The notes under the pieces: model-generated
The model's database searches: none
The model's input: only the letters and a program-made list of their open reading frames with translations
Told to the model about the DNA's origin: nothing
Assembly (NCBI RefSeq): GCF_007829035.1
Contig: NZ_VIVQ01000001.1
Span: 992,001 to 1,056,000 of the forward strand
Reading direction: 5' to 3'
Length of the DNA stretch: 64,000 bases
Source: Rudaeicoccus suwonensis
Lineage (GTDB): Bacteria > Actinomycetota > Actinomycetes > Actinomycetales > Dermatophilaceae
Made by a program: the position numbers and the translations under genes
Shown: piece by piece, positions 5,683 to 36,776 of the stretch
How positions within the stretch are numbered: the first letter of the stretch is position 1
Layout: each line of letters starts with the position of its first letter

Positions 5683-6065
5683 CAGTCCTCCAGGTCATCG
5701 GGGTTGATGCCGAGCAGATGAGCCACATGTTCGGCGAGGACGTCCTCGACGAGGTCGCCGAGATCCGCGGCATCCGACGCCCGGCTCTCGACGGGTCGCC
5801 GGTAGAGCACCACGCGCGGCGCGCCGTTCTTCGTCGCTGCGAACGACCGGCCCAGGGCCAGCCGTCGCTCCCATGGCGGCGGATCGCTCGACGGCACGTC
5901 CTCGACGGCGAACTCGATGTCGGCGAGCGAGCGATGCAGCCGGCGTTCCAGGCTCTCGACGGCGTCCAGCACCAGATCGTCGAATTCCTCCGACCTGCTA
6001 CGCATCGCCGGCACCGGGGGCCAGGCCAGCGGGCCTCGGTGTCCGCGTCCGTGCCGGTCGTTCAT
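5682..6065 (-). CDS. Rv3259-like protein of the metallopeptidase (zincin-like) family, altered zinc motif
   Basis: From ATG 6065 it is 127 residues, close to Mycobacterium Rv3259; the frame stays open further upstream but the added sequence looks non-coding. Visible are the family start GPLAWPPVP.RSRSEEFDDLVLDAVESLERR and the C-terminal helix where zincin-1 peptidases carry HExxH. Here that segment reads LAEHVAHLLGI, so the first His and the Glu are swapped (EHVAH), and a zinc protease activity is doubtful. Position between whiB2 and DUF3499-manB is conserved in Mycobacterium. It is divergent from DUF3499 and coupled by TGATG to the SDR gene. Confidence 0.75.
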   Translation of the reverse strand: MNDRHGRGHRGPLAWPPVPAMRSRSEEFDDLVLDAVESLERRLHRSLADIEFAVEDVPSSDPPPWERRLALGRSFAATKNGAPRVVLYRRPVESRASDAADLGDLVEDVLAEHVAHLLGINPDDLED

Positions 6066-6295
6066 CACAGGGCCGACTGTAACGAGCCGCCCACCCCACC
6101 CGGCTGTATGCCGCAGGTTTCGGCGGGTCGCCGGTCGCACACATGGCAGGAGTCCGCCGCGGAACCGCCGCTGCATCGCCCGGGGACCGAGCGAGTGTTC
6201 GGTGCATCGTCACCTCGCGGACTGCTGCTACGCGGCGTGCCGATCCGGTCAGCGGGTCACACTGACCTACAGTCGTCTGTTGTGACGAGGTGTGC

Positions 6296-6652
6296 ATGCT
6301 GAAACGACAGTGCTCGCGAACCGCCTGCCGCGGTGCGGCCGTGGCGACTCTGACGTATGTGCATGCCGATCGCACCGCTGTGCTCGGTCCGCTCGCGACG
6401 TATGCCGAGCCGCACACCTACGACCTGTGCGCCGACCACACCACCCGGATGACCGCCCCTCGCGGCTGGAATGTCGTGCGCCTGGCCATCGATCTCAGCG
6501 AACCGGAGCCCACGCCGGACGACCTGCTCGCGTTGGCCGACGCGGTGCGCGCGGCGGGCTCGCCGCAGCGGAGTCGCGCGCCCGAGGCGCCGTCCGGCCG
6601 TCCGACGCTGACCGTCGTCCCGGGCCTGCCGGGTCAATCACCCCGCCGGTAG
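6296..6652 (+). CDS. DUF3499 family protein (Rv3258c-like), putative zinc ribbon
   Basis: 118 residues starting at ATG 6296, preceded by GACGAGG at 6284-6290 with good spacing; a GTG two codons earlier is less likely. The core is typical: CSRTAC at the N terminus, then ATLTYV.ADRTAVLGPLATYAEPHTYDLC..H and APRGWNVVRL. The cysteines (two near the start, one with a following His in CADH) suggest a bound zinc. The function is unknown, but in actinobacteria it is nearly always found between the Rv3259-like gene and manB. The C-terminal 40 residues are low-complexity. Confidence 0.85.
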   Translation: MLKRQCSRTACRGAAVATLTYVHADRTAVLGPLATYAEPHTYDLCADHTTRMTAPRGWNVVRLAIDLSEPEPTPDDLLALADAVRAAGSPQRSRAPEAPSGRPTLTVVPGLPGQSPRR

Positions 6653-6663
6653 GCTTCGCCCCT

Positions 6664-8082
6664 GTGACAGTGCACCTGGCCGATTTCGTCAAGGCCTACG
6701 ACGTTCGCGGCGTCGTGCCCGAACAGCTCAACGATGACAGCGTTCGCGCATTGGGCACCGCGTTCGCCGAGGTGGTCGTCATACCCGAGGGAGCCGACCG
6801 GATCGTGGTCGGACGCGACATGCGCCCGAGTTCGCCCGAGTTGGCGCAAGCCTTCGCCGAAGGCGTCGCAACCGCAGGTGTCGCCGTCACGTTGATCGGG
6901 CTCTGCTCCACCGACGGTCTGTATTTCGCCAGTGGTTCGCTCGGTGTGCCCGGCGCGATGTTCACCGCCAGCCACAATCCGGCGAAGTACAACGGAATCA
7001 AGCTGTGCCGCTCCGGTGCCCGCCCGGTCAGCACCGACACCGGGCTGGCCCGCATCACCCAACTGGCGCAAGCGGCTCTGGACGGCACCCGCACCGCAGA
7101 CACGGCACCCGTGCCTGGCGCCATCGACGAGAGCGACATCCTCGGCGACTACGCGCGATTCCTGCGTGACCTGGTCGATCTGCGCGGCAACCGCCCGTTG
7201 AAGGTCGTCGTCGACGCCGGCAACGGGATGGGCGGCCACACGGTGCCGGCGGTTCTCGGAGAGGGAGCCGGCCTGCCGGCGCTTCCGCTCGAGGTCGTGC
7301 CGCTGTATTTCGAGCTCGACGGCACCTTCCCCAACCACGAAGCCAATCCGCTCGATCCGGCCAACCTGCGTGATCTGCAGCGTGCGGTGGTCGACCACGG
7401 TGCAGACATCGGCCTGGCCTTCGACGGCGACGCCGACCGGTGTTTCGTCGTAGACGAGCGCGGCGAGCCGGTGAGCCCGTCGGCGGTCACGGCTCTGGTC
7501 GCGACCCGCGAGCTGCGCCGCGTCGGTGGCAGCGGCAATGTGGTCTACAACCTCATCTCTTCGCGCGCGGTGCCGCAGATCATCACCGAGCACGGCGGAC
7601 ATCCGATTCGCACCCGCGTCGGGCATTCCTACATCAAGGCCGAAATGGCCTCGCACAACGCGGTTTTCGGTGGTGAACACTCAGCGCACTACTACTTCCG
7701 CGACTTCTGGTTCGCTGACACCGGCATGCTCGCGGCGATGCACGTGCTGGCGGCGCTGGGTGAGCAGGACCGGCCGCTGTCCGAGCTGACTGCGGCATAC
7801 AGCAGGTATGTCGCATCCGGTGAGATCAACTCGACGGTGGCCGACGCTGAAGCCGCCCGTCAGCGGGTTCGCGAATGGATGAAGTCGCGGGGCGGCATCG
7901 ACGAAGACACCCTCGACGGCATCACCTGGACCCACGAGGGCCCGCCGATGTGGTGGGCCAATGTGCGCGCCAGCAACACCGAGCCGCTGCTGCGGCTGAA
8001 CGTGGAGGCATCTGATGCCGCGACAATGGAACGTGTCCGGGACGTCGTGCTCGGGCTGATTCGACTGGAGGAAAGTAGATGA
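6664..8082 (+). CDS. manB: Phosphomannomutase / phosphoglucomutase
   Basis: 472 residues, normal for the alpha-D-phosphohexomutase family. It interconverts mannose-6-phosphate and mannose-1-phosphate, feeding GDP-mannose for mannosylated lipids and glycoproteins. The catalytic phosphoserine is Ser103 in TASHNPAKYNG, the magnesium loop is DGDADR at 254-259, the sugar-binding loop is GGEHSAHYYFRDF near 335-350, and the C-terminal phosphate loop is RASNTEP. The frame is open further upstream, but GTG 6664 (VTVHLADFVKAYDVRG) aligns with the family start and lies 11 bp after the DUF3499 stop. It overlaps the next gene by ATGA. Confidence 0.95.
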   Translation: MTVHLADFVKAYDVRGVVPEQLNDDSVRALGTAFAEVVVIPEGADRIVVGRDMRPSSPELAQAFAEGVATAGVAVTLIGLCSTDGLYFASGSLGVPGAMFTASHNPAKYNGIKLCRSGARPVSTDTGLARITQLAQAALDGTRTADTAPVPGAIDESDILGDYARFLRDLVDLRGNRPLKVVVDAGNGMGGHTVPAVLGEGAGLPALPLEVVPLYFELDGTFPNHEANPLDPANLRDLQRAVVDHGADIGLAFDGDADRCFVVDERGEPVSPSAVTALVATRELRRVGGSGNVVYNLISSRAVPQIITEHGGHPIRTRVGHSYIKAEMASHNAVFGGEHSAHYYFRDFWFADTGMLAAMHVLAALGEQDRPLSELTAAYSRYVASGEINSTVADAEAARQRVREWMKSRGGIDEDTLDGITWTHEGPPMWWANVRASNTEPLLRLNVEASDAATMERVRDVVLGLIRLEESR

Positions 8083-8282
8083 CGAGCATCGAACCCTGGC
8101 TGCGCGAGATCCTGCGCTGCCCGGTGGGGCACCACGAACTCATCGACGCGGTGGGCCCCGACGGCGCCCCGGAGTTGCAGTGCGCGACGGAGTGCGGCGA
8201 GCCCGGGTGTCGTCGTGCATACCGCATCGATGGTGGTGTGCCGGTTCTACTTGCTGACGAATCCCGTTCTGTTCCGATGTGA
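8079..8282 (+). CDS. Trm112-family small zinc-ribbon protein
   Basis: 67 residues. It has the YcaR/Trm112 pattern WLREILRCPVGHHEL...C...C, then YRIDGGVPVLLADES, with cysteines that could bind zinc. Homologues of this size lie between manB and the SIS gene in many actinobacteria. Trm112-type proteins elsewhere activate methyltransferases or act as small chaperone-like partners; the partner here is unknown. ATGA overlap with manB argues for coupled translation. Confidence 0.85.
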   Translation: MTSIEPWLREILRCPVGHHELIDAVGPDGAPELQCATECGEPGCRRAYRIDGGVPVLLADESRSVPM

Positions 8283-8288
8283 TTCGGT

Positions 8289-9470
8289 ATGCCGTTCCTC
8301 GACGAGTCCTGGATCGACGACCCGCAGCAACTGGCGTTGCGCGATTCGCGGGAGACATTGCGTGCACTGGCGACCGCGGGGGCTCAGGTCCGCGAAGCGG
8401 TGACGCTTGCGGCCGAGGGCGGCGTGCACCGCGTTGCGTATGCCGAGCGACCTCGTGCCGTTGTCGTGGCGGCGTTGGGCGGCAGTTCACTCGTTGCGGA
8501 CGTGCTGGAGTTCCTGGCTGAGCCCTCGTCGCCCGTGCCGGTGACGGTGCGCCGCGATCTGCCGTTGCCGGGGTGGGTCGGTCCGCTGGATCTGGTGATC
8601 GCCGTCTCGCTGTCGGGCACTGCTGGGGGACCGCTCGCGATCGCGCGCGAGGCTGCCCGACGTGGTGCCTCACTGCTCACCGTCGGTGCGGAGGACTCAC
8701 CGCTGGCGCAGATCAGCCACCGGGCACGCGGCGTGCACATCGGCGTGGGCCGCAGCCGCACATCGTCGCGGACGTCGCTCTGGTCGTTGCTCACTCCCGT
8801 GCTGCGCGCCGCGGACGAGCTCGGCCTGGCCGACATACCGGAACACGTCTTCGGCCAGCTCGCCGATCGACTGGACGAGCAGGCCGACACCTGCCGCCCG
8901 TCATCGGAGTCCTTCGTCAATCCGGCCAAACTGATGGCGGTGCAACTGGCCGAAACGGTGCCGGTGGTGCTCGGTGACGGAGCGCTCACCGGCGTCGCCG
9001 CGCGGCGTGCGTCTGCCATGCTCGCGCGGACCGCGCGCATCCCGGCGACCTGCGGCGAGTTGCCCGATGCGGCCTCGCAGGTCGTGGCGTGCTTCGACGG
9101 CCCGTTCACCGCAGGCGGCGGTGCCGGGGCTCCGGCGGCACGCGGGGACGACGTTTTCGCCGATCCGTTCCTCGATGCTCCGGCGCAGCCGAAGCTGGGC
9201 CTGCTGATGCTGCGAGATGCGCTCCCGTCCCGTCCCACCCAAGAAACCGACACGGCCCTGGCACTGACCGACGCACTGCTGCAGACTGCTCGTGCGGCAG
9301 GGGTGAAGGTCATCGAATCCACAGCATCCGCAGGGCATCCCGTCGTGCGGTTGGGGGAGCTGGTCGCGCTGACAGACTTCGCTGCGACCTACCTCGCCAT
9401 TGGTCTGGGCGTCGACCCGGCCGTGTCCCCGCACATCGCGGATCTGCGTGACCGCACCACCGGTTTTTGA
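8289..9470 (+). CDS. SIS-domain protein, Rv3256c-like (phosphosugar isomerase fold)
   Basis: 393 residues. The region after about residue 55 carries SIS-type nucleotide/sugar-phosphate binding signals: VVVAALGGSSLVADVLEFL, then DLVIAVSLSGTAGGPLAIAREAARRGASLLTVGA, which is the classic S.SG.T..... loop. It belongs with the bifunctional phosphoglucose/phosphomannose isomerase group. In Mycobacterium the same gene sits between manB and manA; here manA does not follow, so this protein could supply mannose-6-phosphate isomerase activity, which is an inference. Seven bases separate it from the Trm112-like gene, so it is the last member of the manB operon. Confidence 0.8.
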   Translation: MPFLDESWIDDPQQLALRDSRETLRALATAGAQVREAVTLAAEGGVHRVAYAERPRAVVVAALGGSSLVADVLEFLAEPSSPVPVTVRRDLPLPGWVGPLDLVIAVSLSGTAGGPLAIAREAARRGASLLTVGAEDSPLAQISHRARGVHIGVGRSRTSSRTSLWSLLTPVLRAADELGLADIPEHVFGQLADRLDEQADTCRPSSESFVNPAKLMAVQLAETVPVVLGDGALTGVAARRASAMLARTARIPATCGELPDAASQVVACFDGPFTAGGGAGAPAARGDDVFADPFLDAPAQPKLGLLMLRDALPSRPTQETDTALALTDALLQTARAAGVKVIESTASAGHPVVRLGELVALTDFAATYLAIGLGVDPAVSPHIADLRDRTTGF

Positions 9471-28857: not shown

Positions 28858-29499
28858 ATGGAAATCACCGTTACCGGTCGCCACGTCGACGTGCCCGAGC
28901 GCTTTCGCCGCCACATCGAGGAGAAGCTGAGCAAGGTCCCCCAGGTGGACCCGCGGGTCTCCCGTTGCGACGTCGTCGTCACGCACGAGACCAACCCTCG
29001 GCAGGCAAAGGAAGCGGAACGGATAGAGATCACCTGCCATGCCAAGCGCTCCATCATCCGTGCGGAGGCCAGTGCGGACGAGGAGTATGCCGCCCTCGAT
29101 CTGGCGATGACCCGACTGGGCGAACGCCTCCGCAGAGTCAACGACAAGCGCCGGGTGCACCGAGGTCGTCGGCACCCGGTGTCAGTACACGACGCCACTG
29201 CTTCGCTTCCCGGGCCCGATGCTCCGACGGGGCAGGAGACAGCACAGGAGTTGCCCACCCATATCGCCAAGGTCGGCGGCGACGAGGACTGCCCCATCCA
29301 GCTACGCGAGAAGGTGCACACCAGCGAGCCGATGGGCGTCGACCAGGCGCTCAACGAGATGGAGCTTGTGGGACACGACTTCTACCTCTATCAGGACGCC
29401 GATTCCGGCAGGCCGTGCGTGGTCTACCGCAGGCGCGGCTGGTCATACGGGTTGATCCAGCTCGACGTCGTTCGCGAGTCCGTGGGCGCCTCAATCTGA
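28858..29499 (+). CDS. hpf: Ribosome hibernation-promoting factor, long form
   Basis: 213 residues from ATG 28858 with an AAGGAG Shine-Dalgarno at 28846-28851; an open frame runs upstream to 28699 but lacks features. The N-terminal HPF/YfiA domain (MEITVTGRHVDVPERFRRHIEEKLSKV, about 1-105) binds the 30S subunit; a linker follows, then the C-terminal dimerisation domain (REKVHTSEPMGVDQALNEMELVGHDFYLYQDADSGRPCVVYRRRGWSYGLIQL). It makes inactive 100S ribosomes in stationary phase or low oxygen. Located just before secA in Mycobacterium; here two GNAT genes intervene. Confidence 0.95.
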   Translation: MEITVTGRHVDVPERFRRHIEEKLSKVPQVDPRVSRCDVVVTHETNPRQAKEAERIEITCHAKRSIIRAEASADEEYAALDLAMTRLGERLRRVNDKRRVHRGRRHPVSVHDATASLPGPDAPTGQETAQELPTHIAKVGGDEDCPIQLREKVHTSEPMGVDQALNEMELVGHDFYLYQDADSGRPCVVYRRRGWSYGLIQLDVVRESVGASI

Positions 29500-29584: not shown

Positions 29585-31864
29585 TCAGTCGCTGACCGGC
29601 AGCCGCTCGAACAACAACAGGTCGACCACCGACCCGTCGCCGAGTCGTTCGGCGTTGTGCGCACGACCGATGGTGCTGAACCCGCACCGCTGCGCGATGC
29701 GAAGCGATGCGGCGTTGCCGTCGGCCACGTGCAGCACGAGGCGGTCCAGGCCGAGTCCACCGCGTGCGCGCGGCATCAGTCCATAGGTCGCGGCAGCCTC
29801 GGCTGCAGCCGACGCAAGGCCACGTCGGCGCGCCTCCGGATGCAGCCAGTAGCCGAGTTCTCCTGTGCTGGGCCCGGATCCGGTGAAGTTCTGCAAACCG
29901 ACGGCCCCGGCGAAGTCAGCGGAGCCAGGCAGGCAGATGGCCCACCACACGCCGTGAGTCGGCACGTCGACGTACCGCTTGCGCCCGATGTATGCCGCAG
30001 CTTCCTGTTGCGTCGGGTGCGCAGGAAGGTCGAGCCAGTGCTTGCTGATCGGATCGGCCCACGTCTGCCGGATCCGCTCGGCATCAGTGGCCCGCAACGG
30101 TCGCAACCGAATGTCGGGGAAGTCCAGCACCGGTGGAAGCACCGCGCGCTGCGCCTCGCGGTCGTCATCATCGAGCACTTCGAAGTAGGCGCCGTCGCTG
30201 AACTCACCGGAACTGGTGGTGTACGCCCGGCGATCCGTTCCCCAGCGGATGAAACCCGCGCGCCGCAGGATCGCCTGCGAGGCGAGATTGTCCAGATCGG
30301 TGGCGGCATGCAGTCGCGTCAACCCGGCGCCACCGTGCGATGCGGGCGAAAACGCATAGTTGACAGCGACTTCCAGCGCTTCCTGCAGTCGGCCCGCGTG
30401 GCGCGCCGAGGGATACAGCCAGTAGCCGATCTCGGCGGACGTCGCGGTTCCCTGACCGATACCGAACAGCGCGATGTTGCCGAGCGCCCGGTCGTCGTCG
30501 CGGTCTGCGATGCACCATGAGATCGCCGAGCCGGAATCCCGTCGGTCGGCTTGCCGCGTGAGCCAGGCCCCGAAGGTCTGCGGTGAGGGCATGGCGCCCG
30601 CTGGCATGAAGCGCTCAGCGGCCTCGTCCGGCCGGTCCTCGTCGCCTGGCAGATCACTCTCACGCCATGGGCGCAGGCGCAGTCGGTCCGTTTCGAGCAC
30701 CGGGACCACGGCCGGTGAAACTCGTTGCTCTGCAGCGTCGTCCGTGGCCAGCAGCTCCCACGTTCGGCCGCCGGTAGGCGCCCGGTCGCCATACGTGAGC
30801 ACGCCCTGTTCTTCGCCGGCCAGCCGGAAGCCTGCCCGGCGCAGGACGCGCGCCGAGGCGCGGTTGGCGACGTCGGTGCCGGCCTGCAGCCGATGCAGAC
30901 CGACGCCGGTCGAGCCGCTGTTGTCGGATCGGTCGGCGAACGCATGCGGCCGTAGCAGTTCGATCGCCTCTCCGACGACGCCGCGCCCGCGCGCCGACGG
31001 ATACAACCAGTAGCCGAGCAACCCGCTGCCACGGGTGAGCATCGCATCCAGGTGCAGCAGCTGTATGCAACCGAGGGCTTGGTCGCTGGTGCTGTCGGCG
31101 ATGCACCAGAAGACCGCCGATCCCGCCGCCATACGTTCACGGCGCTGCAGCAGCCAGTCGGCGTAGGTCTCCGGCGCCGGCTGCATCTCCTCGACGAAGT
31201 GCTGGGCCACGTCGTCGGTCGCCTGGAGTGTCTCGTCGTCGCGCCACGCTCGCAGCCGAATACTGTTGCTCTCCAGCGTCGTCGGCTCCCACCACGGGTG
31301 CGCTGGCACACCGCGCGGTGCGCTCGCGTCGAGATGCCCGATCCACAGATCCTCGGTGTTGCCCGACCCGTCCGTCGACTGCGCCGGCCACACACCGTCG
31401 ACGGTGAAACCGGCCGCCCACGCGACCCTGCGCGAAGCCCAGTTGCCGCGACCGGCACGCCACGTCACCGTCGACAGGTGCCGGACATCGAAGGCGTATG
31501 CCGTAACCAGCCGTGCTGCCGCGGTCATCACCCCTCGCCCACGCACCGACGGGTGGCCGTTGTAGCCGAGTTCACCGGCGGCAGGGGAGCGGTGATGCAG
31601 GTTGATCGTGCCGGCGTACTCGCCGTCGACGTCGAGCGCCCAGAACTGCTGTTTCCCCGAGCACCAGTGCTGCCGGATCGTGGCGAGAAACTCCCGGGCG
31701 CAGGTTTCGTCGTACGGTCGGGGTAACGACAGCCAAGCCAAGGTGCGGGGATCGTTGCAATTGCTGACAATTCGCGGAATGTCGCTGTCGCGATGGGCGC
31801 GCAGGGTGACAGTGCCGTCGGTCAGCACCGGGACGTCGTCGGGGTAAGCGAACTCCCGTGTCAC
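29585..31864 (-). CDS. Protein of four fused GNAT acetyltransferase domains, 759 aa
   Basis: Four consecutive RimJ/RimL-type GNAT repeats of about 185 residues are seen, with acetyl-CoA loops: ELGYNGHPSVRGRGVMTAA (domain 1), LLGYWLYPSARGRGVVGEA (2), EIGYWLYPSARHAGRLQEA (3) and ELGYWLHPEARRRGLASAA (4). Each also has the C-terminal N.AS..../GF helix (GNWASRRVAWAAGF, NRASARVLRRAGF, NLASQAILRRAGF, NAASLRIAQRCGF). Domain 3 has lost the RGRG/RRRG form, so it may be inactive. Single-domain GNATs are about 180 residues; four in one chain is unusual. The start overlaps the stop of the paralogous triple-GNAT gene by 4 bp. Substrate unknown. Confidence 0.85.
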   Translation of the reverse strand: MTREFAYPDDVPVLTDGTVTLRAHRDSDIPRIVSNCNDPRTLAWLSLPRPYDETCAREFLATIRQHWCSGKQQFWALDVDGEYAGTINLHHRSPAAGELGYNGHPSVRGRGVMTAAARLVTAYAFDVRHLSTVTWRAGRGNWASRRVAWAAGFTVDGVWPAQSTDGSGNTEDLWIGHLDASAPRGVPAHPWWEPTTLESNSIRLRAWRDDETLQATDDVAQHFVEEMQPAPETYADWLLQRRERMAAGSAVFWCIADSTSDQALGCIQLLHLDAMLTRGSGLLGYWLYPSARGRGVVGEAIELLRPHAFADRSDNSGSTGVGLHRLQAGTDVANRASARVLRRAGFRLAGEEQGVLTYGDRAPTGGRTWELLATDDAAEQRVSPAVVPVLETDRLRLRPWRESDLPGDEDRPDEAAERFMPAGAMPSPQTFGAWLTRQADRRDSGSAISWCIADRDDDRALGNIALFGIGQGTATSAEIGYWLYPSARHAGRLQEALEVAVNYAFSPASHGGAGLTRLHAATDLDNLASQAILRRAGFIRWGTDRRAYTTSSGEFSDGAYFEVLDDDDREAQRAVLPPVLDFPDIRLRPLRATDAERIRQTWADPISKHWLDLPAHPTQQEAAAYIGRKRYVDVPTHGVWWAICLPGSADFAGAVGLQNFTGSGPSTGELGYWLHPEARRRGLASAAAEAAATYGLMPRARGGLGLDRLVLHVADGNAASLRIAQRCGFSTIGRAHNAERLGDGSVVDLLLFERLPVSD

Positions 31865-33546
31865 TCGGCGACCTCGGCGCGCAGCAGTTCGAAATACGCC
31901 CCGTCGCAGATCGTGCCGTCGAGCGCCACGAACGACCGGTGGTCCTGACCCCAGAGCCGGAAACCAGCCGAGGCGAGAGTCAGCATCGAGGCGTGGTTGG
32001 TGTCGACCGTCACGGCGTCGAGGCGCTCAAGGTCAAGGCCTTCCGGCGAGAACGCATAGTCCACAACGGCTTTCAACGCTTCGCCAGCGCGACCGTGGCC
32101 GCGCGCCGGCTCTTCCAGGGTGTAGCCGATCGTCCCCGATCGCAGCCGTAGGTCGATCCGGCGCACCACGATCGATCCGATGGCGTTGTCCGTCGAGGCG
32201 TCGGCGATGCACCAGCCGACCGATCGTCCGTTGAGTGCGCGGCTGCGGTGACGAGCGAGCCAGGTGCTCCATCCCGAGCGCGTCGGGCGCAGATCCACGC
32301 CCATATTCGCGGCGAGCACCGGATCGGGCGCCGGATCGGAGACGGGCCGGTCGGTGTCGCGCCATTCACGCAGCACGAGTCGATCCGTGCGCAGCATCGG
32401 CACCGGCAGCGCGTGCGCGCGCTGCGCCGGGCGGTCGTCGTCGCGCAGCAGCTCGAAGGTGAGTTGTGCCGTCGGCGGATCATCGGCATACGTGAGCGAC
32501 TGCTGCTCGACACCACTGCGGCGGAAACCCGCCGCCCACAGCGCCCGCTGCGAGGCGAGATTGTCGGCGTCGACATTCGCCGCGAGCCGGTGCAGACCCA
32601 TGCCGCCGGCGCGCGGGTTTCCGAACGCGTGCGGCAGGAGCGCATCGAAGGCAGCACGAAGCACGCCACGCCCGCGCGCATCCGGCGTGAGCCAGTACGC
32701 CACCATCGCGCTGCCCGCGTGCACGGGCGAGTTCATCCGGAACAGCTGGATGCCGCCCAGAGCCCGATCGCTCGTCGGATCGGCGATGCACCAGAAGGCG
32801 CCTTCACCCTCTGCCTGCCGCTCCTGTCGAACCGTCAGCCACTGCTGAAATCCGTTCGGGGTCGGTGCCGAGCCCATCATGTAGCGGCTCAGTGCGGGGT
32901 CCGGAGGATCGACAGGTATGTCGTCCGCGCGCCACGCGCGCAACCGGATCCCGTCACCGGACAGCGCGGTCGGCACGAACCACGGATGCTGCGGCGTGCG
33001 CGGGGCGGTGGCCAGCAGGTGCGCGTGCCAGGTGTCGGTGAGAGTGCCGTCCGGCGCGGTGCGACTGGCCGGAAGCGTTGCGTCATACGTGAAGCCCACC
33101 GACCAGGCGACTCGACGTGAGGCCCAGTTGCCACGTGCAGCCCGCCAGAGCAGCACCTGCAGACCCGGGTCGGCGAAGGCGTGATCGACGATGAGCCGGG
33201 CGGCCCGCTTCATCACGCCTCGCCCCCTGACGTCCGGGTGGGCGCCGAAGCCGACCTCGGCGGTGCCGATCGCCCGTGCTGTCAGTCCGATCGACCCTGC
33301 CCACCGGCCGCCCGTCTCGATGGCCCAGGTGTGTGGTCGCTCCGGCTGCTGCCAGTTGGAGCGCACCTGCGCGATGAACTGCCGTGCTTCGTCCGGGCCG
33401 TATGGCGCCGGCAACGACTGGACAAATTCACGTGATGCGGGGTCATTCGCGAACTCGACGATGCGGTCGGTGTCGCTGTCGCGAGTTTCACGCAGGGTCA
33501 CGACTCCGTCGGTCAGGACGGGCGCTTGGTGAAGGTGGACCGGCAT
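31861..33546 (-). CDS. Protein of three fused GNAT acetyltransferase domains, 561 aa
   Basis: Three GNAT repeats with loops EVGFGAHPDVRGRGVMKRA, MVAYWLTPDARGRGVLRAA and TIGYTLEEPARGHGRAGEA. It parallels domains 1-3 of the next gene: both start PVLTDG.VTLR...DSD..RIV, both share the GNWASRRVAW helix in domain 1, FWCIAD.TSD.ALG.IQL in domain 2 and DGAYFE.L at the end of domain 3. So the two genes are probably a duplication, with one later gaining or losing a domain. ATG 33546 is preferred; a TTG at 33558 is in frame. No strong ribosome site was seen. Confidence 0.83.
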   Translation of the reverse strand: MPVHLHQAPVLTDGVVTLRETRDSDTDRIVEFANDPASREFVQSLPAPYGPDEARQFIAQVRSNWQQPERPHTWAIETGGRWAGSIGLTARAIGTAEVGFGAHPDVRGRGVMKRAARLIVDHAFADPGLQVLLWRAARGNWASRRVAWSVGFTYDATLPASRTAPDGTLTDTWHAHLLATAPRTPQHPWFVPTALSGDGIRLRAWRADDIPVDPPDPALSRYMMGSAPTPNGFQQWLTVRQERQAEGEGAFWCIADPTSDRALGGIQLFRMNSPVHAGSAMVAYWLTPDARGRGVLRAAFDALLPHAFGNPRAGGMGLHRLAANVDADNLASQRALWAAGFRRSGVEQQSLTYADDPPTAQLTFELLRDDDRPAQRAHALPVPMLRTDRLVLREWRDTDRPVSDPAPDPVLAANMGVDLRPTRSGWSTWLARHRSRALNGRSVGWCIADASTDNAIGSIVVRRIDLRLRSGTIGYTLEEPARGHGRAGEALKAVVDYAFSPEGLDLERLDAVTVDTNHASMLTLASAGFRLWGQDHRSFVALDGTICDGAYFELLRAEVAE

Positions 33547-33696
33547 ACGCACAGACAATCAGATCTGTCGAGTGATCTGGCCGCAGCGCCGGGAGGTCCG
33601 CCGGAGTTTCGCAGCGGCATGGACGTGCCGACCGGTCGGCGCGTCGCCGCGCTCGCGGCGGGGCGACGTCATGCGCGCGCAGTCGTCGAGGGTCCG

Positions 33697-33795
33697 TCAG
33701 TGGCGCTGCTTGCGGCTGCCGCCGGAGCCGACCACGACGGTGAGCGCAATGACGATGAGCCACATGGCGATGACGACCAACCAGAACCAAGTCAC
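33697..33795 (-). CDS. Possible 32-residue single-span membrane protein
   Basis: GTG 33795 opens a frame ending at TGA 33697. The product starts VTWFWLVVIAMWLIVIALTV, an unbroken hydrophobic helix, and ends with a basic tail GGSRKQRH. That composition is rare by chance in high-GC DNA and fits a small membrane protein oriented by its positive C terminus. A TATCTT hexamer lies about 8 bases before the GTG, which could be a -10 box for a leaderless transcript. No Shine-Dalgarno was seen. Family unknown. Confidence 0.45.
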   Translation of the reverse strand: MTWFWLVVIAMWLIVIALTVVVGSGGSRKQRH

Positions 33796-34040
33796 GCCCG
33801 CAAGATAGGCACGCTGGCTGAGCGGAACCTGGGCATCCAGCGTCCGTGTCGCTGTATCCGACGGCAGGCCGCGGCCATGGCCCGTTCACTTCTCGCGCCC
33901 GAATCACGCCGGACCGCTCGGAGCGGGTGTGACGGCAGCCGCACGGTCGGGCCCGTGAGCGGCGACCGGTGGATTAAGCTTGTCGGGTCTGTCCACCGGG
34001 AGGGACGTACCACCTGCCCGTCCGTTGATAGGGAGCATTC
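33796..34040. other. Upstream region of secA
   Basis: 245 bases between the small membrane frame and secA. The secA ribosome site (AGGGAG, 34030-34035) is clear. A likely promoter lies near the AT-richer GGATTAAGCTTGTCGG (33971-33986), but no -35/-10 pair was certain. The region shows no further gene. Confidence 0.35.

Positions 34041-36776
<2,736 letters not shown>

Follow-up and report, generated by a model that had tools for sequence, protein, structure and literature searches.

How do two adjacent bacterial genes come to encode seven fused GNAT domains, and which of these domains would carry out the chemistry? The question arises from genes A and B, which lie in a 64,000-nucleotide stretch of Rudaeicoccus suwonensis DNA (contig NZ_VIVQ01000001.1, positions 992,001 to 1,056,000; the whole stretch is referred to as the window) and encode three and four such domains, respectively. 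Judged from sequence, A and B may be paralogous RimL/RimJ-like (PF13302) N-acetyltransferases, divergent from a neighbouring gene that we take to be secA, with the last domain of B (B4) as the main catalyst and domains 1-3 as binding partners. We favour this reading tentatively and give it slightly less than an even chance.

Seven GNAT domains in two overlapping genes

The two genes and their domain segments are as follows. Domain types were assigned from segment identities and the domain tree described below, and for B1 from segment identities and more than one tree.

31861..33546, minus strand: gene A, three fused GNAT domains (PF13302 profile), ATG start, 561 residues
32974..33546, minus strand: domain A1, type 1, residues 1-191
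32407..32973, minus strand: domain A2, type 2, residues 192-380
31864..32406, minus strand: domain A3, type 3, residues 381-561
29585..31864, minus strand: gene B, four fused GNAT domains (PF13302 profile), GTG start, 759 residues
31286..31864, minus strand: domain B1, type 1, residues 1-193
30707..31285, minus strand: domain B2, type 2, residues 194-386, without either acidic residue examined
30137..30706, minus strand: domain B3, type 3, residues 387-576
29588..30136, minus strand: domain B4, type 4, residues 577-759, both RimL catalytic positions kept

Searches with the hidden Markov model PF13302 (Acetyltransf_3) gave seven separate matches in frames A and B, each scoring 66.1-89.9 bits against a cut-off of 25.4, with whole-protein E-values of 1.6e-62 for A and 2.2e-86 for B. 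All seven segments, which span 181-193 residues, are thus above the cut-off, and A and B are the sole frames with more than one PF13302 match among the 31 matches listed for the genome. A chance origin of the seven-domain pattern is excluded by these E-values and the conservation in relatives. The two genes overlap by four bases (GTGA, 31861-31864), the GTG start of B lying on the stop of A; a TTG four codons 5' of the ATG is a possible alternative start of gene A. Coordinates and profile matches agree with the preliminary description of this DNA, which had proposed two genes with four and three fused GNAT domains and a 4-bp overlap. The RimL equivalog model NF007539 scored 62.1 bits for B and 35.1 bits for A, both under its 184-bit cut-off.

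The AlphaFold model of B, built from a six-row alignment and with a mean predicted local distance difference test score of 78.9, contains four GNAT-like secondary structure repeats. The GNAT fold is assigned to B1, B3 and B4 by direct PDB matches and to B2 by secondary structure in the model only. The PDB matches listed are GNATs, each aligned across about one domain. Those of B1 and B4 include MccE (Z 22.0), RimL (Z 21.4) and Mycobacterium smegmatis RimJ (Z 20.9); 1nsl is also among the matches (Z 21.1). Among the matches listed by Foldseek and VIA-align, nearly all alignments cover a single domain, and MshD, VipF and CBG are absent from the best 50 rows of each structural search.

Domain types and in-order pairing

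Comparisons with relatives used a sample of 94 stretches, comprising 60 stretches, 20 from a class-wide survey, 11 from the window's family, two Flexivirga loci and the window. Two duplicates were dropped (L114 = L030 and L115 = L029), leaving 92 distinct stretches, which were picked because they match and are not an unbiased sample. Segment identities are 48.7% for A1-B1, 47.6% for A2-B2 and 42.5% for A3-B3; that of A2-B3 (45.7%) is nearly equal to that of A2-B2. A quick tree built on 97 domain rows places the first domains of the selected proteins, L045 excepted, in one group (support 94), the type 1 group, which includes A1 and B1. A2 and B2 fall in one second-domain set (18 rows, support 87), A3 and B3 in one third-domain set (17 rows, support 96), and B4 clusters with five other fourth domains (6 rows, support 99). 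The in-order pairing 1-1, 2-2 and 3-3, which the preliminary description had put up for refutation by such a tree, is what the tree recovered.

Types 2 and 3 are sisters and, together with the second domain of two-domain proteins of the same family, form a set termed M (43 rows, support 97). In other families of the order, the second domain of the two-domain proteins falls outside the M set; it lies close to the fourth domains, where internal support is weak. L033, L036, L041 and L046 have fourth domains that fall elsewhere than the B4 group, and L041 and L045 have no simple fit to the domain types.

Catalytic positions and selection

In RimL, S141 is the general acid and E160 the general base (PMC4964394). 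The residues in B that bear on catalysis are listed here.

29705..29707, minus strand: Ser720 of B4, aligned with RimL S141 (general acid)
29648..29650, minus strand: Glu739 of B4, aligned with RimL E160 (general base)
30389..30406, minus strand: acetyl-coenzyme A (acetyl-CoA) loop ARHAGR of B3, residues 487-492, in which the first Gly of the usual RGxG is lost and R and the second Gly are kept

All seven window domains have Ser at the S141 position, and the Ser141/Glu160 pair is complete in B4 only. The other six have Ser without Glu, and none of the domains of A has both. The count in relatives covers 155 typed domains; it leaves out the 11 stretches added later from the family and 44 domains from divergent or rearranged loci (L041, L043-L047, L055, L057, L076, L084, L105-L110). 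The S141-equivalent Ser is present in 154/155 typed domains. The E160 position holds Glu in 10/10 fourth-type domains, Glu or Asp in 15/22 fourth-like second domains and Asp in 17/24 M-type second domains. It is acidic in 0/18 type 2 and 0/18 type 3 domains and non-acidic in at least 53 of the 63 type 1 domains. The beta-4 Glu is kept in 40/63 domains of type 1, 4/18 of type 2, 13/18 of type 3, 24/24 of M, 8/10 of type 4 and 21/22 of the fourth-like type. The domain types also differ in their invariant residues.

The CoA loop (Q/R-x-x-G-x-G/A) retains R and the second G in all seven window domains. Its sixth position is G/A in A3 and B4 only, and RimL has Ile there. Across the typed domains the loop Arg is present in 155/155 and the second Gly in 148/155; the first loop Gly is present in 17/18 third-type domains counted. 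The loop of B3 had been described as broken. However, its R and second Gly are retained, as is the Ser, and selection acts on the orthologues of B3 in two relatives. The loop is degenerate rather than shown broken, and B3 as a broken domain was rejected as unproven.

Ratios of non-synonymous to synonymous substitution rates (dN/dS), obtained by a simple Nei-Gojobori count on one pair of relatives (L031 versus L113) and not on the window, are 0.23 for A1, 0.31 for A2, 0.11 for A3, 0.11 for B1, 0.31 for B2, 0.17 for B3 and 0.15 for B4 (range 0.105-0.310). SecA of the same pair has a dN/dS of 0.056. Because all values are below 1, each domain is constrained by purifying selection in these relatives, type 2 least.

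Proposed function and its alternatives

A and B would be expressed together as a unit of two genes, in divergent orientation to secA. In B, most of the chemistry would be done by B4, with Ser720 as the predicted acid and Glu739 as the predicted base; acetyl-CoA would be the donor, and an amino group of a protein or peptide the acceptor. N-acetylation of a protein or peptide is plausible given the RimL-like residues. Domains 1-3, which have the CoA loop and Ser without the E160 Glu, may by analogy be mainly CoA-binding, substrate-groove or pseudo-dimer partners. A, which has no domain 4, would be either the partner subunit of B or the user of another base. The roles of B4 as main catalyst and of A as a paralogue minus domain 4 are suggested by the tandem GNATs studied and by the RimL substrate site. 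RimL has its protein substrate site at the dimer interface (PMC4964394), and the non-catalytic GNAT domain has a binding or partner role in MshD and VipF. Exceptions to the C-terminal rule in tandem GNATs have been described (PMC13060382, preprint).

Several points weigh against this assignment. The match to E160 comes from sequence alignment only, in a region that is gapped for type 1, and the beta-4 Glu of types 1 and 3 could be an alternative base; a catalytic Glu is reported not to be universal in bacterial GNATs. Eleven of the 92 stretches have a single gene with a three-domain frame, and the third domain is third-type in at least six of them (L038, L039 and L040 by the domain tree; L120, L122 and L123 by best match). 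The third domain of L047 sits on a long branch together with a fourth domain, and four of the eleven are untyped. Since six three-domain genes end in a third-type domain, domain 4 is dispensable for gene retention. In addition, the low predicted template modelling scores (0.46 for B and 0.59 for B1-B2), from two structure predictions aimed at the intramolecular dimers that the preliminary description had proposed to look for, leave the modelled domain packing, pseudo-dimers included, not established.

In a multivalent enzyme, more than one domain, or every one, would be active, either at separate sites of a single large substrate (a ribosomal or exported protein) or on a number of substrates. 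Such an enzyme would fit the conservation of the CoA-loop Arg (155/155) and the Ser (154/155), the purifying selection on all seven domains in relatives and the different invariant residues of each domain type. However, type 2 mostly has neither acidic residue (beta-4 Glu 4/18, E160 acidic 0/18) and has the highest dN/dS (0.31 in A2 and B2), and several tandem GNATs studied have a single active domain. We regard a multivalent enzyme as unlikely.

Structural likeness points to another candidate, a small-molecule or peptide-antibiotic N-acetyltransferase for self-immunity or resistance. The domain fold is like that of bleomycin N-acetyltransferase (Z 20.6) and MccE (Z 22.0), which have antibiotic substrates and one GNAT domain matched per chain. 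MccE is the best structural fit of domain 1, AAC(6') appears in the same structural lists, and RimL itself has MccE activity (PMC4964394). However, the MccE-like rows are tied with or near RimL, RimJ and 1nsl, so that the fold does not discriminate. The fixed chromosomal place beside secA in 57 of the 92 stretches would also be unlike that of a mobile resistance gene, and an acetyltransferase of this kind is improbable.

The location beside hpf and secA, and the CoA loop without the E160 Glu in most window domains, would agree with a mainly non-catalytic, acetyl-CoA-binding scaffold or sensor that regulates a neighbouring process such as translation or export. This role is distinctly improbable, since B4 has both catalytic positions, with the Glu in 10/10 fourth-type domains counted, and gene order by itself is weak evidence of function. 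A seven-domain complex of A and B for multi-site acetylation, which would have arisen stepwise from a two-domain hpf-secA ancestor and would present CoA-charged domains to one large substrate (e.g. hibernating ribosomes or nascent exported proteins), is very unlikely.

Occurrence in related genomes

Of 97 genomes searched, among them that of the window, 88 have matches to P0002. When a two-domain profile was used to survey the class, it gave matches in 101/296 genomes at 1e-40, many of whose rows cover one domain only; both domains are spanned (start at or before 7 and end at or after 345 of 372) in 50/296 genomes, again including the window's own. Of the 92 stretches, 57, the window among them, have their multi-GNAT gene or genes flanked by hpf on one side and secA on the other, in the orientation opposite to secA. 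In five stretches secA is the sole marker, with the opposite strand in four. Another 22 have neither marker: 11 belong to the window's family, some of these lying on short contigs, and 11 do not. Seven have no multi-GNAT frame, and one falls in none of these groups.

The 85 stretches with a multi-GNAT frame comprise 54 two-domain, 13 four-domain and 11 three-domain layouts, together with four of 3+4, two of 3+3 and one of 2+2, counts that include some frames cut at contig ends (e.g. L044). Two domains are the commonest form. The three- and four-domain forms occurred in the window's family only within the stretches examined, and no frame with more than two GNAT domains was found in the 31 stretches from outside it. 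The chain length had been called unusual. It does exceed the common two-domain form, but chains of three and of four domains are found repeatedly within the window's family and are related to that form.

A search for the same fusion, proposed earlier, covered 186 family genomes, that of the window among them, and recovered the A/B pair in five others, all Flexivirga. At 52% identity or more, full-length relatives of A are confined in this set to the window's genome and the five genomes of g27 (Flexivirga). Two of the five belong to Flexivirga endophytica and F. caeni; the genus of the window has a single genome in the set. The pair has the 3+4 layout in the window and in three of the five Flexivirga genomes and the 3+3 layout in the other two, in which the second gene has no domain 1.

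By sequence, A and B are members of the secA-linked actinobacterial GNAT family. They share with its two-domain proteins the place, the orientation and the type of domain 1, and have a related second domain. Those proteins have two domains (1+M or 1+4-like), usually in one gene, whereas A and B have three and four. A and B look like a local expansion of the two-domain enzyme beside secA.

Other arrangements were also observed. L110 (7053-9460), from another family, has a pair of neighbouring two-domain GNAT genes (2+2) next to secA, a separate local duplication. GNAT frames with one, two and one domains lie in a row beside secA in L105 (2617-4884), another local expansion. In eight stretches from two other families (L097-L104; f45 and f57), the two-domain gene is present, and both hpf and secA are missing from the sequence covered.

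Duplication and changes in domain number

In a tree of domains 1-3, one clade holds the A copies and another the B copies (100/100 and 100/99), both from the same four genomes, which supports the tandem gene duplication with a domain difference that had been proposed. Because each copy is a clade of the same four genomes, the duplication predates the split of the window's genome and Flexivirga. The deep branches of this tree are too weak to place the A/B split among the other genera, and the A-type first domains form no supported group of their own in the first-domain tree. Domains like the fourth are also present in two-domain proteins from outside the window's family, which makes loss of domain 4 from A likelier than its gain in B, although support at the deep nodes is weak.

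The three-domain L039 groups with the four-domain L032 and L037 (100/100), and the three-domain L042 with the four-domain L033 (97/94). Domain number has thus changed more than once. Searches with tblastn (E up to 1e-3) found no remnants of domain 4 in the 2 kb 3' of six single three-domain genes; as a positive control, the search behind gene A of L031 recovered domain 4 of the neighbouring B.

In L030 (Flexivirga caeni; 5989-9373), domain 1 of gene A falls in the B set (100/99) and gene B has no domain 1. This make-up suggests recombination between the tandem copies. Gene B of L116 likewise has no domain 1.

Comparison with known acetyltransferases

In fold, the modelled domains of B are like RimL, RimJ and 1nsl; A and B also have a similar CoA-loop core (R and second Gly) and the Ser at S141, and B4 the Glu at E160. 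However, those proteins have one domain per chain, whereas A and B fuse three and four. More than one GNAT domain per chain is a feature shared with the tandem GNATs MshD, CBG of the clavulanate cluster, VipF, NpuN and Eis, in which, as far as the accessible sources describe them, one domain apparently carries the catalytic role, as proposed for B4. These have two GNAT domains (Eis with an additional C-terminal region), in contrast to the three and four of A and B, their paired genes, RimL-like sequence and place beside secA. Multi-GNAT lysine acetyltransferases have been classed as 'type V / class III', of about 400 residues, with Eis as the sole characterised example (PMC6456759), and A and B have the trait of multiple GNAT domains per chain that defines this class in the accessible part of that source.

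A literature search, with most subscription papers outside its coverage, returned papers on two-domain GNATs and no title or abstract on a GNAT locus between hpf and secA; it found no paper on three-, four- or multi-GNAT proteins. Tandem GNATs are known, and the chain length of three and four domains and the paired genes appear to be new. Multi-GNAT chains in the accessible literature are few and two-domain, whereas this locus offers a graded series (2, 3, 4, 2+2, 3+3 and 3+4) at one conserved place. Its domain types with differing catalytic residues make the gain, loss and retention of extra GNAT domains testable, in a widespread acetyltransferase beside secA for which the search found no study.

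Neighbouring genes

The GNAT unit of the window is flanked by the following features.

28858..29499, plus strand: hpf, ribosome hibernation factor family, conserved convergent neighbour
33547..34040: intergenic spacer of 494 bp that separates the divergent gene A and secA
34041..36776, plus strand: secA, conserved divergent neighbour outside the GNAT unit

The names hpf and secA are our presumed identifications and come from no profile match. In the window, gene B comes directly after hpf. In L051 (7965-10005) and L092 (6352-7638), hpf and the GNAT gene are separated by a gene for a LuxR-type response regulator and one for an AlkZ-like DNA glycosylase. As these genes are on the hpf strand, they form no operon with the GNAT gene. 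Frames resembling this pair by eye are present in L038, L062 and L067, and the main AlkZ-like match of the window's own genome sits elsewhere (G000:C1:1354711).

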